Of a DNA stretch of 64,000 nt, positions 1 to 45,693 are shown in pieces. The stretch is from an uncultured Chloroflexota bacterium (GTDB lineage Bacteria; Chloroflexota; Chloroflexia; Chloroflexales; Chloroflexaceae), in NCBI GenBank assembly GCA_937120965.1, contig CAKZKA010000058.1:1-64000 (forward strand). The letters are read 5' to 3'. The notes beneath the pieces are model-generated. The model made no database searches. It saw nothing but the letters and a program-made list of their open reading frames with translations, and was not told the DNA's origin. A program made the translations under genes and the position numbers. Position 1 is the stretch's first letter, and each line of letters opens with the position of its first letter.

Positions 1-4349
<4,349 letters not shown>

Positions 4350-16913: not shown

Positions 16914-17121
16914 TTTAAGGGCGGACAGAACATCCGGGCCAACATGGCTTGTACCGCATTGGAACGCCCCCGCGCACGGCGCTGGTCTCCCCGCTTCGAC
17001 AGGCTCAGCGCAGGCTCTCCAGCGAAGCTGGAGAGATACCAGGGGCCGGGGGTGAGGACCAACCGGCGCATCCCCACGCCATACCGCCCGTCGGCGTCCA
17101 TAGGTTCTGTTCACCCTTAAA
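16914..17121 (+). mobile_element. 201-bp MITE-like element, copy 1
   Basis: Begins TTTAAGGGCGGACAGAAC and ends with the inverted GTTCTGT(T)C(A)CCCTTAAA. It carries the family core (CCGCATTGGAACGCCCCCG, a CTTCGACAGGCTCAG block and a CTCCAGC-GAA-GCTGGAG hairpin). At 208 bp it is slightly longer than the other copies because of a few extra bases after the internal hairpin. Flanks are only imperfectly duplicated (CCCACC-rich on both sides). It lies upstream of the P-type ATPase gene. Confidence 0.85.
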
Positions 17122-24800: not shown

Positions 24801-25001
24801 TTTAGGGGCGGACAGAACATCCGGGCTAACGTGGCTTATACCGCATTGGAACGCCCCCGCGCATGGCTCTGGTCTCCTCGCTTCGACAGGCTCAGCGCAG
24901 GCGCTCCAGCTTCGCTGGAGAGGGGGAGGGGGCGGGAGCCAAGCAGCGCATCCCAACGCCATAACGCCCGTCTGCGCTCATACGTTCTGTCCGCGCCTGA
25001 A
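24801..25001 (+). mobile_element. 201-bp MITE-like element, copy 2
   Basis: Exactly 201 bp, from TTTAGGGGCGGACAGAAC to GTTCTGTCCGCGCCTGAA, giving 18-bp imperfect terminal inverted repeats. It is flanked by the 10-bp direct repeat CCCGCAACGC (24791-24800 and 25002-25011), as expected after transposition. It holds no ORF of its own. Confidence 0.9.
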
Positions 25002-25150: not shown

Positions 25151-25450
25151 GCCGTCCATGCGGCTGCGCCGCATAACCCGGAATGAACATATGTGTTTTT
25201 GGGAGGGCTGCGCCCTCCCAGGCCCTCCCGGTGGGGAGGGCCTGCCGCCCCCACGGGCAGGGGGATGGGGAAACCTGGTTTCCCCATATGTTCACATCAG
25301 TCATTCCATGCGGCTGCGCCGCATAACCCGGAATGAACATATGTGTTTTTGGGAGGACTACGCCCTCCCAGGCCCTCCCGGTGGGGAGGGCCTGCCGCCC
25401 CCACGGGCAGGGGGATGGGGAAACCTGGTTTCCCCGTATGTTCACATCAG
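25151..25450 (+). repeat. Tandem pair of 150-bp composite units
   Basis: Two nearly identical 150-bp units (25151-25300 and 25301-25450). Each has a TGCGGC-TGC-GCCGCA hairpin, a GGAATGAACATATG spacer, a GGGAGGGC-type hairpin, CCCTCCCGGTGGGGAGGG and the 19-bp palindrome with central T (25267-25285, 25417-25435), ending TATGTTCACATCAG. The second copy has GGAGGAC-TAC-GCCCTCC, which weakens its hairpin. The array ends about 34 bp before the next gene. Confidence 0.85.
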
Positions 25451-36330: not shown

Positions 36331-36807
36331 CATCGCCTCCTCGCCTGCGGTAACCAGAGAGTTCGTTGTATGTACCGCTGCGGAAGGCCAGAGGTTCCCA
36401 CCCCCGGTGCACAGCCCTTCCCGGGACGCTCAGCTCTCAGGGAGAGAGTTTTTTTTCAGAGCGCGTCAGGATGCCATCCTCCAGAAACTCTCCACCCAAA
36501 AGCAACGGAGGAAGGCCAGGGAGAGGGCAGCCCTCCCCCCCTTTCATGCCGGCGTTGTGCGGCGCAGCCGCATGGACGACTGAGGTGAAAATATGGGGAA
36601 ACCGGGTTTCCCCATCCCCCTGCCTGTGGGGGCGGCAAGCCCTCCCCACCGGGAGGGTTTGGGAGGGCTGCGCCCTCCCAAGAAAAACCCATGGTCATCT
36701 CGTCGTTGTGCGGCGCAGCCGCAAGGAGGACTGACCGGTCAACACCCGCTTCCCGCAGGGTCGCGTACAATACCGCCACGCATCGGAGAACTGCATATGA
36801 GGAAAGC
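36331..36807. repeat. 477-bp intergenic region with palindromes and a candidate promoter
   Basis: No gene is seen. Contents include a TTTTTTTT tract near 36449, a TGCGGC-GCA-GCCGCA hairpin near 36559, the 19-bp palindrome at 36595-36613 (central G), a GGGAGGGC-TGC-GCCCTCCC hairpin near 36663 and a second TGCGGC hairpin near 36708. A TACAAT motif (36766-36771) lies about 40 bp upstream of the kinase start and may be its -10; no -35 is evident. Confidence 0.65.
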
Positions 36808-38745
36808 ATGCGCATCTGTGAAGATCAGCGAAACGGCGAAGGCTGCGGCGCGATCAACCCTAACAACGCAACCGTCTGCGCCCGCTGCGGACGCTCGCTG
36901 CAATTCGCCGTGCAACTGCGCGACCCGGGTGACCGGATCGGCGCTTATGAAGTTGTGCGCGACCTGGGCCACGGCAGTTTCGGGGCCGTGTACGAGGCAG
37001 TGGATACCCGCAACCCGGAACGCCGGGTCGCCATCAAGGAAACATTCGAGGCGCCATCGGTGCGCGGTTTCCAGCGCGAGTTCGAGGCCCTCGCCAACCT
37101 GCGCCATCCCAACCTGCCCCGCTACTTCGAGATGTTTGAGGCTGATGGCTGCGGGTACCTGGTGATGGAGTTCGTGCCCGGCCAGAGCCTCGATGAGATC
37201 CTCGCCCGCCAGAAGGGTCCCCTCTCTGAACAACTGGTGGTGGCCTATGCAGAACAGCTCTGCGACTTGCTCAGCTACCTGCACAGCCAGCATCCGCCGA
37301 TCATCCATCGCGACATCAAGCCCCACAATGTCCGCGTGACGCCCGAGGGCCAGGTGAAACTGGTAGACTTCGGGCTGTTCAAACAGGGCGTGCAACGCAC
37401 CCGCAAAACGCTCCACGGCCTGGGCACACTGGAGTATATGCCACTGGAGCAGTTCGACTGGTCCGGCGGAACTGACCAGCGTAGCGACATCTACAGCCTG
37501 GGCGCGACACTGTACCATCTGCTGACCAACCGCTACCCCCTCAGCGCCCCGCGGCGCATGAGCAGTGTGCGCGACCCGCTGAAGCCGCCCCATAAGCTGA
37601 ACCGCCGCGTCTCGCCGCAGGTCTCACAGGCAATTATGCGGGCCATGGCGCGCTTCCCCCAGGAGCGGTACCCGAGCGCCGAGGCGTTTTGCCGCGATCT
37701 GCAGGGCCGGGCGCAGCGTTACATCAGTGGCGCGCGCATTGGCCGCGCGCTGCGCGGGCATGGCAGTTTCGTCCACGGGGTCGCCTGGAGCCCCGATGGA
37801 CGCACCGTGGTGAGTTGCAGCGCCGACCGCACCGTGCGCGTCTGGCGAGTGGCCGATGGGGCGCCACTCGCCTGCCTGGAGGGCCATGCCGACCGGGTGT
37901 TGAGCGTGGCCTGGAGTCCCGACGGTGAACTGATCGCCAGCGCCAGCGCCGACCGCACCGTGCGCCTGTGGCGCGTCCGCGAGTGGCAGGTCCTGCGTAT
38001 CCTCGATGCCCACGCCGAGGCCGTCCACGGGGTGGCCTGGAGCCCCGACGGCGACCTGATCGCCAGCGCCAGCGCCGACGGCGCGCTCCGCCTCTGGCAA
38101 ACCAGCGACGATGGGCCAGCGAACGAACTGCGCCCTGAGGCGCATGCCCGGCTCTACAGCGTTGGCTGGCGCCCCGATGGGCAGAGCCTGGCCGCGGGCT
38201 ATGGCGATGGGGTTGTGCGCCTCTGGCACCTCGGCGAACCGCCGACCCTCGACAACCTTCCCGGGCACACTGGCTACATCTACGCGGTGGCCTGGAGCCC
38301 CGACGGGCAGATCCTGGCCAGCGCCAGCGCCGACAATACGGTGCGCCTCTGGCGCCTGGCCAAGGGTCGCCTGGTCAACGAACTCCGCAAGCATCGCAAC
38401 TGGGCCGCCGACCTGGCCTGGAGCCCGATCGGCAAGGTGGCCGGCTTCGGCGAGGCCACTCGCCGCGAGCCGCTCTGGCTCTGGCGCGTGAGTGACGGTA
38501 GCCTCTGCACCACGCTCACCGGTCACCAGAATTATGTCTACACAGTGGCCTGGAGCCCCGATGGGCAGGCCCTGGCCAGCGCTGGCGCCGACTCGACCAT
38601 CCGCCTATGGCGCCACGACGGAATGCCCATCACGACCCTCACCGGCCACAGCGACTGGGTGCAGTGCGTGGCCTGGAGCCCCGATGGCCAGAACCTGGCC
38701 AGCGCCAGTCTCGATGGCACGGTGCTGCTCTGGAACCTGGAGTGA
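36808..38745 (+). CDS. Zinc-ribbon Ser/Thr protein kinase with eight WD40 repeats
   Basis: A 645-aa cytoplasmic signalling protein. The N-terminal four-Cys zinc ribbon (C-E-D...C-G-A-I-N-P...C-A-R-C-G) is followed by a Hanks-type kinase domain (about residues 46-310) with G-H-G-S-F-G-A-V, V-A-I-K, H-R-D-I-K-P-H-N and D-F-G, so it should be active. There is no membrane helix after the kinase; instead eight WD40 repeats follow, most reading V-A-W-S-P-D-G and ending in L-W. Repeat 6 is divergent. Repeats are close at DNA level, suggesting recent expansion. GAGGAAAGC precedes ATG 36808; the longer frame to 36691 runs through repeats. The substrate is unknown. Confidence 0.92.
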   Translation: MRICEDQRNGEGCGAINPNNATVCARCGRSLQFAVQLRDPGDRIGAYEVVRDLGHGSFGAVYEAVDTRNPERRVAIKETFEAPSVRGFQREFEALANLRHPNLPRYFEMFEADGCGYLVMEFVPGQSLDEILARQKGPLSEQLVVAYAEQLCDLLSYLHSQHPPIIHRDIKPHNVRVTPEGQVKLVDFGLFKQGVQRTRKTLHGLGTLEYMPLEQFDWSGGTDQRSDIYSLGATLYHLLTNRYPLSAPRRMSSVRDPLKPPHKLNRRVSPQVSQAIMRAMARFPQERYPSAEAFCRDLQGRAQRYISGARIGRALRGHGSFVHGVAWSPDGRTVVSCSADRTVRVWRVADGAPLACLEGHADRVLSVAWSPDGELIASASADRTVRLWRVREWQVLRILDAHAEAVHGVAWSPDGDLIASASADGALRLWQTSDDGPANELRPEAHARLYSVGWRPDGQSLAAGYGDGVVRLWHLGEPPTLDNLPGHTGYIYAVAWSPDGQILASASADNTVRLWRLAKGRLVNELRKHRNWAADLAWSPIGKVAGFGEATRREPLWLWRVSDGSLCTTLTGHQNYVYTVAWSPDGQALASAGADSTIRLWRHDGMPITTLTGHSDWVQCVAWSPDGQNLASASLDGTVLLWNLE

Positions 38746-38774: not shown

Positions 38775-39076
38775 TTTAAGGGCGGACAGAACATTCGAGC
38801 CGAGGTGAAAATAGCCCGCCCGCGGGAGGGTTTGGGAGGGCTGCGCCCTCCCAAGAACAATAATATTTTCATTCTGGCGTTGTGCGCCCCGCGCATGGGG
38901 CCTAACGTGGCTTGTACCGCATTGGAACGCCCCCGCGCACGGCTCTGGTCTCCCGCTTCGACAGGCTCAGCGCAGGCTCTCCAGCTTCGCTGGAGAGGGG
39001 GAGGGGGTGAGGACCAACCAGCGCATCCCAACGCCATAACGCCCGTCGGCGCCCATACGTTCTGTCCGCCCCTCCC
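38775..39076 (+). mobile_element. 201-bp MITE-like element, copy 4, interrupted by another repeat
   Basis: Starts TTTAAGGGCGGACAGAAC and ends GTTCTGTCCGCCCCT. Between the left end and the TAACGTGGCTTGTACCGCA core lies an extra segment of about 101 bp (38802-38902) that is a composite palindrome unit. Subtracting it leaves about 200 bp, the usual element length. Confidence 0.85.
38802..38902. mobile_element. Composite palindrome unit nested inside a MITE
   Basis: Runs from GAGGTGAAAATAG through a GGGAGGGC-TGC-GCCCTCCC hairpin and ATATTTTCATTCTGGCGTTG to a GCGCCCCGCGCATGGGG end. The TGAAAATA and TATTTTCA boxes near the ends are inverted. Its clean presence inside an otherwise conserved element shows that this unit inserted as a discrete piece. 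Confidence 0.75.
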
Positions 39077-42699: not shown

Positions 42700-42900
42700 T
42701 TTAAGGGCGGACAGAACATCCGGGCTAACGTGGCGTATACCGCATTGGAACGCCCCCGCGCATGGCTCTGATCTCCCCGCTTCGACAGGCTCAGCGCAGG
42801 CGCTCCAGCGAAGCTGGAGCGGGGGAGGGGGCGGGAGCCAACCAGCGCATCCCAACGCCATACCGCCCGTCGGCGCTCATACGTTCTGTCCGCTCTTAAA
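42700..42900 (+). mobile_element. 201-bp MITE-like element, copy 5
   Basis: Exactly 201 bp, TTTAAGGGCGGACAGAAC to GTTCTGTCCGCTCTTAAA, with well-kept terminal inverted repeats. It is flanked by the exact 10-bp direct repeat CCTCTCCCTG. With copies 2 and 6 it defines the element ends. Confidence 0.92.
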
Positions 42901-43014: not shown

Positions 43015-44022
43015 TCAGTCTCCATACGAGTGGGGAAAGGCCTCTTCAACGTAGATAATCTTGCTTCCCTGAGGTTCAAAGAGGATCGGCACCTGCCGGA
43101 GGCCCGGCAATGCAGCGCGAATGGCTGCGTGGCGCTCCTCCGGAGCGTAGAGCAGCAGAAAGCCGCCGCCGCCGGCCCCGAGGATCTTGCCGCCGATCGC
43201 CCCCGCCTCGCGCGCCCGCTCGTACCAGACGTCGATCTGCTGGTTGCTGATCGCGGAGGCCAGAGTGCGCTTGCGCATCCAGCCCTCGTGCAAAATCTCG
43301 CCGAATGCCGTGAGATCATCCGCCACCAGGGCGGCGCGCAGATCGTGGGCCAGGGCCACCATCTCGCGCAGGGCCAGACGTCGTGAATGATCACGCTCGG
43401 TGTTGGCGCGCTGCTCGTGGAGCACCCCCGCAGTCTTCCGCGTTACCCCGGTGTACATCATCATCAAACGCGCCTCGAGTTGCCGCCTGGTTTCGGGCTT
43501 GCAGATCACCGGATCGACAAACACACTCTCGTCGGGGTTAAACTGAATGAACTGCAAACCGCCGTAGGCGGCGATGTACTGGTCCTGTTTGCCAATTGGT
43601 TCGCCACAACGCTCGATCTCGATCCAGCAGGCCTCGCGAGCCAAACGCTCAGCCCCGGCGTGCCGTCCGTAGTACGCGTGCAGCGCGTTGAGCAAACCAA
43701 CCGTGTAGGTGCTGGAGGAACCCAGTCCGGTGCCCTGCGAGGGGATATCGGAGATCGAGGTGATCTCGATGCCGCGCTTGCAACCGACCAGTTTGAGCGA
43801 CTCACGGATGAGCTGGTGTTTCAGCTCGTCTACATGATCAACAATCTCCGTGACCGAATAGCTCGCGCGGATCTGATGATCGAACTTGGCATTCACCGTG
43901 ATATAAATGTATTTATTGATCGCCACGCTCACCACGGCCCCCGGTTCGTGCCGATAGAACGCGGCAAGATCACTTCCGCCCCCGACAAAACTGATCCGCA
44001 ATGGGGTACGAGAAATAATCAT
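43015..44022 (-). CDS. hddA: D-glycero-alpha-D-manno-heptose-7-phosphate kinase (GHMP family)
   Basis: Phosphorylates heptose 7-phosphate at C1 on the route to GDP-heptose used in surface glycans. The 335-aa GHMP kinase starts M-I-I-S-R-T-P-L-R-I-S-F-V-G-G-G-S-D-L, a hallmark of HddA-type sugar kinases. It has the ATP loop G-T-G-L-G-S-S-S-T-Y-T-V and the C-terminal G-G-K-I-L-G-A-G-G-G-G-F. ATG 44022 is preceded by AAGGAAAGACA. A TATAAT box on the minus strand (44127-44122) lies about 100 bp upstream. GmhB, the next enzyme in the pathway, is encoded 1.9 kb away on the other strand. Related fucose or other sugar 1-kinases are the main alternative. Confidence 0.88.
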   Translation of the reverse strand: MIISRTPLRISFVGGGSDLAAFYRHEPGAVVSVAINKYIYITVNAKFDHQIRASYSVTEIVDHVDELKHQLIRESLKLVGCKRGIEITSISDIPSQGTGLGSSSTYTVGLLNALHAYYGRHAGAERLAREACWIEIERCGEPIGKQDQYIAAYGGLQFIQFNPDESVFVDPVICKPETRRQLEARLMMMYTGVTRKTAGVLHEQRANTERDHSRRLALREMVALAHDLRAALVADDLTAFGEILHEGWMRKRTLASAISNQQIDVWYERAREAGAIGGKILGAGGGGFLLLYAPEERHAAIRAALPGLRQVPILFEPQGSKIIYVEEAFPHSYGD

Positions 44023-44121
44023 TGTCTTTCCTTTTCCTCCACGGTCCGATATGATTCCTTGATGGTTCGATGTGGCGCCACGGACCGATTCGCGTCCAAC
44101 CGGTAGACTCCCGGCGTTCGC

Positions 44122-44127
44122 ATTATA
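44122..44127 (-). promoter_or_regulatory. Candidate -10 box for hddA
   Basis: TATAAT on the minus strand (plus-strand ATTATA) in an A/T-richer patch. It would give a leader of about 90 nt. No good -35 is seen at 16-18 bp. Confidence 0.45.
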
Positions 44128-44390
44128 ATCCTTCCTGGCGCAATTGGAAGCCCCGAAATGACATTGTAAGAATACTGTCAACCACGTGCATTCCGAGGTT
44201 ACAACTGGTTTAAGTACCTCCTGGCCGCCTCTCTACACGCATACGACATCGTAACAGATGCGTTCGCGCCGCATAACGCTAGACTCCCATGCGGCTGCGC
44301 CGCACAACACCGGAATGAAAAGAGATTCTCCCGGGCGCGCGCCGCCCTCCTGGACCCTCTCCGCCAGCGGGGAGGGCTTGCCGCCCCCAC

Positions 44391-44400
44391 AGGCAGGGGG
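44391..44400 (+). repeat. 10-bp target-site duplication, left (MITE copy 6)
   Basis: AGGCAGGGGG abuts the element and recurs exactly at 44602-44611. The interrupted sequence is the AGGCAGGGGGATGGGGAAACC junction of a composite palindrome unit. Confidence 0.88.
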
Positions 44401-44601
44401 GTTAAGGGCGGACAGAACATCCGGGCTAACGTGGCGTATACCGCATTGGAACGCCCCCGCGCATGGCTCTGGTCTCCCCGCTTCGACAGGCTCAGCGCAG
44501 GCTCTCCAGCTTCGCTGGAGAGGGGGAGGGGGTGAGGACCACCCAGCGCATCCCAACGCCATACCGCCCGTCGGCGCTCATACGTTCTGTCCGCCCCTGA
44601 A
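44401..44601 (+). mobile_element. 201-bp MITE-like element, copy 6, inserted in a composite repeat
   Basis: 201 bp, GTTAAGGGCGGACAGAAC to GTTCTGTCCGCCCCTGAA, flanked by exact 10-bp repeats. Removing the element and one repeat restores the sequence seen uninterrupted at 25245-25285 (GGGCAGGGGGATGGGGAAACC), so the pre-insertion site is known. The right flank continues into a 19-bp palindrome at 44614-44632 (central A). Confidence 0.92.
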
Positions 44602-44749
44602 AGGCAGGGGGATGGGGAAACCAGGTTTCCCCATTTACAATCGCTGTGTCGGCAGCGCTTGACCCTCCATCGGCAGGGGATGGGGAAATCGGGGTTTCTC
44701 TGATTTCACCTCTTTGCTGCATGCGGTGAAGCTCCAGGGGGTTCTGAGG

Positions 44750-44793: not shown

Positions 44794-45693
44794 ATGCGGA
44801 TTCACATCTCCTGGAAAGCGTTGCTGGCCGTCGTCATCTTTTTGACGGCTGTGGCGTTGCTGCTCCGCTCCGCCTCACGGCTCTGGACATCGGAGGCGCA
44901 GACTGGCGTGACTATCAGCCCGGCCCCTACGCAGAGCACGGCTCTCACTCCTGTTGCTGCCACCCTGGCGCCGACGAACTGGCCCACTGTGGCGGCCCCG
45001 GCTACACCGTCCTCTTCCAATACACTGACCCCGGCCTTCAGTATTACCGACACGCCCGTTCCTTCTCCACAGCCAACCCTGCGGCTGCCTACTCCTACGC
45101 CCCTTCAACCGCCTACCCGCGAACCGACACCGGCGCCCAATCCGCTGATGATCGTTGCCCAGGGGTTCGGGCAGCGCGCTGGTACCGCCAGTTACGCCTT
45201 CGTGGTCAGCAATCCCAATCCTAAGCTTCTTGCCCAGAACGTGCGCTACCAGGTCGCCGCCTACAACGCCGAGGGCATCGTGCTGCTGACGGACACTGAT
45301 ACGATCCCTCAGATTGGCCCGGGACAGCGTATGGGCGCGGCCAAACAGGTAACTCTACCATCGAGTCTTACCATTACGCGCATTGAGGTCCTGATCCGGC
45401 CCGGTCAGTTTGTGCAGGCGCCACCGCTCCAGGAACTGCCTGTATCCAACGCCGCTTTTATTCAGGGCGATCCGCCGAATATCACTGCCATTCTCTCCAA
45501 TCCGTTGAACCGTGATCTCGCCAACCTGAAAGTGGTCGGGATTGCCTACGATGATGTCGGGATCATCGGCGGCGGGACAGTTGATCTGCCCTTCGCGCCG
45601 GCCAGGGGCCAGGCGCCGATCAGCATTCCCGTAAGCACCAGCCAGGTGGCTACCCGGGTCGAGTTTTTCGCCCAGGTGAGCACGTCGCCCTAA
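44794..45693 (+). CDS. Membrane-anchored protein with Pro/Thr stalk, unknown function
   Basis: The 299-aa product has an N-terminal membrane helix (about residues 8-26), roughly 85 residues of Thr/Pro-rich stalk (T-P-T-P-L-Q-P-P-T-R-E-P-T), and an exported beta domain of two similar halves (N-P-N-P-K-L-L-A-Q-N-V-R-Y-Q-V and N-P-L-N-R-D-L-A-N-L-K-V-V-G). Each half resembles an FxLYD-like immunoglobulin-type fold with an N-P....N/L-V pattern. No enzymatic motif is seen. It lies at the start of the plus-strand polysaccharide block and may be a surface or envelope protein. Confidence 0.7.
   Translation: MRIHISWKALLAVVIFLTAVALLLRSASRLWTSEAQTGVTISPAPTQSTALTPVAATLAPTNWPTVAAPATPSSSNTLTPAFSITDTPVPSPQPTLRLPTPTPLQPPTREPTPAPNPLMIVAQGFGQRAGTASYAFVVSNPNPKLLAQNVRYQVAAYNAEGIVLLTDTDTIPQIGPGQRMGAAKQVTLPSSLTITRIEVLIRPGQFVQAPPLQELPVSNAAFIQGDPPNITAILSNPLNRDLANLKVVGIAYDDVGIIGGGTVDLPFAPARGQAPISIPVSTSQVATRVEFFAQVSTSP

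Follow-up and report, generated by a model that had tools for sequence, protein, structure and literature searches.

A MITE within a repetitive palindrome of a Chloroflexaceae genome: probable target choice by an IS4-family element

The window analysed here is a stretch of 64,000 nucleotides included in contig 58 of a 5.18-Mb Chloroflexaceae draft genome of 307 contigs (the host genome). Two divergent ORFs, one on the minus strand (43015-44181) that is of the GHMP-kinase type and matches PF00288 and PF08544, and one on the plus strand (44794-45693) for which a Pfam search gave no match, flank a composite palindrome unit that is split by a MITE, here termed copy 6. The features of this site are as follows:

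44287..44400, plus strand: left portion of the interrupted composite palindrome unit; 44287-44372 belongs to repeat family D5 and the remainder aligns to uninterrupted units
44384..44400, plus strand: target hairpin CCCCC-ACAGGCA-GGGGG, running from a C-rich to a G-rich arm and overlapping the duplicated bases (direct read)
44391..44400, plus strand: left copy of the duplication (TSD), AGGCAGGGGG, 10/10 with the right copy (direct read)
44401..44601, plus strand: MITE copy 6, 201 bp, with termini GTTAAGGGCGGACAGAAC and GTTCTGTCCGCCCCTGAA and without a transposase (direct read; terminus counts)
44602..44611, plus strand: right TSD copy, AGGCAGGGGG (direct read)
44612..44634, plus strand: right portion of the interrupted unit, ATGGGGAAACCAGGTTTCCCCAT (repeat family D3; flanks joined)

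The inserted element reads GTTAAGGGCGGACAGAACAT...ACGTTCTGTCCGCCCCTGAA, and ATGGGGAAACCAGGTTTCCCCAT follows after the right TSD copy; its ends are inverted, reading inward as GTTAAGGGCGGACAGAAC on the left and TTCAGGGGCGGACAGAAC on the right. The left edge could be off by one base, because the first base is G here and T in most copies. As placed, the TSD matches at 10/10 positions; when left and right flanks from the same MITE family are mismatched, 0.16% of the pairs agree this well by chance. Re-reading thus bore out an earlier note on this DNA, according to which the MITE lies within a pre-existing palindrome unit and is bounded by a clean 10-bp duplication (10/10 at 44391-44400 and 44602-44611). 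Removal of the element and one duplicate joins the flanks as CGCCCCCACAGGCAGGGGGATGGGGAAACCAGGTTTCCCC, and this junction matches other units in the window:

36593..36647, minus strand: uninterrupted junction, the best in the window, matching the joined flanks of copy 6 over 98.2% of 55 bp
25233..25287, plus strand: uninterrupted junction, matching over 94.5% of 55 bp
25383..25435, plus strand: another uninterrupted junction, matching over 94.3% of 53 bp

The second of these contains the uninterrupted version that had been reported at 25245-25285. At the copy 6 site the palindrome is older than the MITE. The same junction was also hit in other units of the sample, at L082:14149 (CAGGCAGGGG) and L093:308 (CCGGCAGGGG), with a TSD of 10/10 in both cases.

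The target palindromes combine high copy number with a palindromic build and may be of the REP kind. The junction CAGGCAGGGGGATGGGGAAACC occurs 718 times in the host genome with at most two mismatches (371 + 347; reversed-pattern control 0 + 0). Palindrome units were also seen in short tandem arrays at a spacing of 69-70 bp (G000:C25:6122-6283 and C64:8056-8146, both in the host genome). The window holds repeats of other kinds. At 37750-38740, units of about 126 bp look coding, carry a W-SPDG-like motif and resemble WD40 repeats; at 76-1719, a direct repeat of about 300 nt, apparently Ala/Pro-rich, occurs five times and overlaps the ORF at 93-4349.

The 18-bp MITE terminus TTYARGGGCGGACAGAAC was found 402 times in the host genome with at most one mismatch (196 + 206; reversed-pattern control 0), so the family should comprise about 200 copies. 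Copy 6 has the build of a MITE, being 201 bp long and non-coding, with 15-18 bp ends and a 10-bp TSD in common with the IS4-type element described below. Two other copies in the window also have perfect duplications:

42700..42900, plus strand: MITE copy in CCTCTCCCTGAGGGGAGG, TSD CCTCTCCCTG, 10/10
24801..25001, plus strand: MITE copy, TSD CCCGCAACGC, 10/10

The eight copies found on the contig all lie in the same, plus orientation (window positions 16914, 24801, 32801, 38775, 42700, 44401 and 62993, and C58:66428). Lengths mostly lie near 146, 178, 201 and 251 bp (L050:162, L052:1342, window 44401 and L053:1750), and these length classes differ by central hairpin modules, as if the interior had been enlarged by hairpin addition. 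The MITE probably fragments the assembly, because host contigs C7, C19, C33, C54, C145 and C166 start inside copies (first 120 bases). Contig starts were inspected for the parent element as well, and these six yielded MITE copies and no parent.

The sample of insertions drew on the window, on stretches totalling 600,273 bases and on 32 search loci, and gave 123 end pairs; a terminus filter kept 100 of these and dropped 23. Among the 100 accepted elements, 45 came from stretches chosen for an end and 28 from a similarity search, and rates in the sample are not genome-wide, because many stretches were picked for holding an end. A TSD of 9-11 bp with at most two mismatches was read at 65 of the 100 elements, the other 35 being left unscored. 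Ten base pairs was the best reading in 42 of the 65, and perfect 10-bp TSDs numbered 22 among the 123 end pairs.

When these 65 sites were restored, they proved to be C-rich on the left and G-rich on the right over about 10 positions per side, with the central few positions weakly constrained. By polarity, 49 were C|G, 15 had the expected composition on one side, one had it on neither, and none was reversed (G|C), as compared with 782 C|G and 884 G|C among 20,000 random positions. Perfect hairpins (stem at least 7, loop 3-9) in 574,875 sampled bases comprised 121 C-left, 245 G-left and 694 others. A binomial calculation on the 49 polar sites, with sites treated as independent, gave 8e-17 and 3e-24. 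Composite units hold both polarities adjacent to one another (e.g. GGGAGGGCTGCGCCCTCCC and CCCTCCCCTCAGGGAGGGG), and therefore an intergenic preference alone does not explain the polarity bias. A stem of at least 6 centred within 4 bases of the TSD centre was present at 28/65 sites, versus 5.7% of 2,000 random window positions; 22 of the 65 sites had no central stem of at least 5, and 16 were not clearly C|G. Uninterrupted look-alikes were found for 38/65 restored sites, versus 37/130 displaced and 35/500 random stretches, the controls omitting exact self matches and being handled in a manner nearly equal, though not identical, to the sites. This count is stricter than an initial 43/65, which could include a site's own flank.

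In relatives, single ends that belong to longer elements pointed the way to a DDE transposase. Elements found complete in Herpetosiphon aurantiacus DSM 785, H. geysericola and an uncultured Kouleothrix measure 1307-1352 bp, have the first 15 bp of the MITE ends and are flanked by TSDs of 10-11 bp; ends in Chloroflexaceae relatives are identical to the MITE ends at all 18 bp. Six loci in relatives (L154, L156 and L159-L162) had single ends and no recognised transposase among their ORFs. H. aurantiacus carries 16 copies (16 + 16 ends with at most one mismatch, control 0), thirteen of 1311 bp and three of 1307 bp, and in this complete genome 10/16 copies have perfect 10-bp TSDs. Its target palindrome CCCCTCTCCCACTGCGGCGGGAGAGGGG gave 145 + 147 matches at up to three mismatches (control 0); distinct sites may be fewer, since one site can match on both strands.

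The insertion sequence loci comprised 21 entries (L185-L205), of which 18 had both ends and 12 could be scored. Left out were L185, L202 and L205 (one end missing), L186, L193, L197, L201 and L203 (without a TSD) and L200, whose 30-base left flank duplicates an earlier entry; L168 and L189 are the same H. geysericola element and were counted once. All 12 scorable copies (11 Herpetosiphon, 1 Kouleothrix) sit in C-to-G palindromes, with stems of at least 5 in 12/12 and at least 7 in 10/12, as against 9.4% and 0.9%, respectively, of 1,800 Herpetosiphon flank positions. Their TSDs of 10-11 bp, about one helix turn, agree with the IS4 family.

All three transposases analysed match PF01609 above the cut-off. 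Catalytic spacings of D-64-D-101-E (L164) and D-64-D-100-E (L168) fall within the IS4 range of D(60-110)D(100-150)E, and the Y(2)R(3)E(6)K motif is present in two of the three (YRQRAVIEALFRDWK and YGRRSAIEALFRDWK). In the third (L165) an A replaces the catalytic E and the Y(2)R(3)E(6)K motif was not found; the element concerned is 1378 bp long, has no TSD and lies in a relative's genome of 5,801,598 bases in a single contig. Scores against the NCBIfam IS4 models stayed below the curated cut-offs (best transpos_IS4_2, 97.8-115.5 bits vs 152), and the terminal sequence TTTAAGGGCGGACAG / TTTAAGGGC fits none of the seven IS4 subgroup signatures set out in Table 1 of PMC2266710. The sequences themselves show the termini, TSD length and target polarity of the MITE, and show that complete IS4-type elements of relatives have these termini and this target in common with it. 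The mobiliser of the MITE is likely to be an insertion sequence of the IS4 family that shares its terminal 15-18 bp and has a TSD of 10-11 bp.

In the host genome itself, Pfam, C-terminal and profile searches found no intact copy of this transposase, although a draft of 307 contigs may lack one; the C-terminal query returned nothing at E 1e-5. A profile of the three transposases detected one N-terminal piece of 71 residues (C253:5033-5245), located about 120 bases past a left end with three mismatches, beside C|G sequence. Similarity stops thereafter and a palindrome unit lies downstream. From this decayed N-terminal piece and its left end we infer that an autonomous element was formerly present in the host genome. 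Three PF01609 loci in the host genome were considered as partners and rejected: two are without MITE ends within the stretch read, and the other (L033) matches the DDE domain in part and lies next to a degenerate MITE.

Under the mechanism that we propose, an IS4-type transposase would have moved the MITE. It would select a polar palindrome in which a C-rich half-site (CCCTCCC-like, about 10 bases) is separated by several free bases from a G-rich half-site (GGGAGGG-like), would read both half-sites as DNA sequence, and would cut with a 10-bp stagger spanning the symmetry centre. Repetitive GC-rich palindromes would offer hundreds of such targets, and for that reason the element would accumulate within them; copy 6 would be one insertion of this targeted kind. 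Judging from sequence, we consider it highly probable that the MITE is a non-autonomous IS4-family derivative served by a palindrome-selecting transposase with C-rich and G-rich half-sites and a 10-bp stagger. The palindrome location of copy 6 most likely reflects the preferred landing sites of the mobilising enzyme.

That the duplications are coincidences or artefacts of repeat assembly might be suspected from the contigs of this draft that start within MITE copies, but perfect 10-bp TSDs occur in 22 of the 123 end pairs, as compared with 0.16% of mismatched ones, and in 10/16 copies of the complete H. aurantiacus genome, which makes the probability of such an origin negligible; the TSD and polarity counts rule it out for practical purposes. 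Another objection is that there is no target choice, the element inserting anywhere between genes, palindromes making up much of the intergenic DNA and insertions into genes being lost by selection. Palindromes are indeed dense nearby, a stem of at least 6 occurring at 24, 13, 12, 13, 4.6 and 3.8% of positions displaced by 20, 30, 40, 50, 60 and 80 bases, that is, at 12-24% of positions 20-50 bases away, and stretches displaced within these flanks have look-alikes too (37/130). Against this, such stems drop from 28/65 at the centre to 6/130 at 60 bases, and all 10 scorable H. aurantiacus copies lie within one palindrome family. Strong counter-evidence comes from the complete lack of G-left/C-right insertions (0/65), given that such hairpins are twice as common in the sample and occur in the same composite units, and we regard insertion without target choice as very improbable. 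Target choice might instead operate through structure, the transposase recognising an extruded hairpin or cruciform and not the base sequence. The sites are palindromic, with stems of up to 10 in Herpetosiphon, and native halves pair slightly better with each other than with shuffled halves (mean pairing 5.29 vs 4.98), a borderline difference (permutation p 0.05). However, no insertion occurred in the G-left arrangement, A-T pairs in the stems are not significantly more numerous than with shuffled halves (63 vs 61.3, p 0.395), and the polar C-run/G-run consensus by itself accounts for most of the pairing. Because the gain in pairing is slight, the A-T excess absent and the consensus sufficient for most of it, we favour two half-sites read as sequence; with its matched-halves test borderline and the A-T version negative, recognition of structure was not adopted and seems to us quite unlikely. 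We hold the same opinion of its broader form, in which the transposase would read DNA shape, C-to-G palindromes would be captured as extruded hairpins or cruciforms with arm polarity deciding the attack, and palindromes would serve one element family throughout the order as safe, ever-present landing pads.

Target choice bears on what copy 6 can say about time. The earlier note had taken copy 6, together with its copy 4, as a sign that two separate families were active over overlapping periods. Nesting in both directions stands: a palindrome unit interrupts a MITE at the site listed here,

38775..39076, plus strand: MITE copy split by a palindrome unit (copy 4; read by eye)

and, again by eye, at a second locus (L068:18944). 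The use of copy 6 as evidence on activity periods does not stand. Because C-to-G palindromes are the usual site of the element (49/65 insertions with a TSD), a MITE in a palindrome is expected at any time after palindromes existed, and copy 6, as a likely product of target choice, dates only "palindrome first" at its own site. Timing information would come only from the reverse nesting, and neither of the two reverse cases showed a clean TSD when inspected by eye. Overlapping activity of the MITE and the palindrome units is therefore possible but weakly evidenced: nestings in both directions speak for it, yet the target preference strips one direction of its timing value, and that copy 6 mainly records two independent families with overlapping activity periods appears to us somewhat unlikely. 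Other nestings were noted by eye. Apparent MITEs within MITEs occur at L014:1158-1452, L097:166-507 and L081:14068-14446. Another small repeat with TACCAA...TGGTA-type ends and apparent TA flanks lies inside three MITEs (L084:241-499, L122:481-803 and L134:487-842) and also adjoins the decayed insertion sequence (L207, host genome); it appears to be a MITE family of its own.

With target choice preferred as the explanation, an apparent record of two families becomes a case of how one element selects its sites, and nested pairs of the MITE-in-palindrome kind are, because of that choice, unfit as a naive clock. The 16 copies in cultured H. aurantiacus and the approximately 200 MITEs in a relative form a natural system for studying the choice of a polar palindrome by an IS4-family transposase. 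The case also suggests that a non-coding element can multiply by inserting into sequence that exists in many copies anyway and can probably be interrupted without harm.

The target of IS231A is GGG-N5-CCC, a polarity opposite to that of the C|G target described here. The presumed parent resembles the IS4 family in its DDE spacing, YREK motif and TSD of about 10 bp, which are hallmarks of that family (De Palmenaer et al. 2008, PMC2266710). The MITE shares its build with Correia, ERIC, Chunjie and QMITE2, which are short and non-coding, have inverted ends and reach tens to hundreds of copies (PMC10969869); in the part of that source drawn on here, no MITE is described with repetitive palindromes as its regular target, and in Coxiella the relation is reversed, IS1111 inserting into QMITE2. 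A literature search on MITEs and insertion sequences, which covered titles and abstract openings and lay mostly outside subscription papers, returned no description of this element. IS1397, IS621, ISPpu9, ISPpu10 and ISPsy8 are alike in targeting REP sequences; they belong to families other than IS4 and differ in TSD length. Their insertion into REP sequences is specific, and ISPsy8 is assigned to IS3 and ISPpu9/10 to IS110 (PMC1525189).

The closest likeness is to ISRm22 of Sinorhizobium meliloti, also an IS4-family element that targets a repetitive palindrome: all of its copies (10/10, Table 2) lie in a REP palindrome, and the insertion point is the symmetry axis (Tobes and Pareja 2006, PMC1525189). 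Repetitive palindromes thus have a precedent as targets within the IS4 family. The two systems differ in TSD length (6 bp in ISRm22, 10 bp here), in host phylum and in the palindrome itself, and whereas the part of PMC1525189 used here mentions no MITE derivative of ISRm22, the present genome has about 200 copies of a MITE offshoot. The present case departs from ISRm22 in its 10-bp stagger, in the C|G polarity of its target, in termini that fit none of the listed subgroups, and in a MITE, present in about 200 copies, that has retained the preference.
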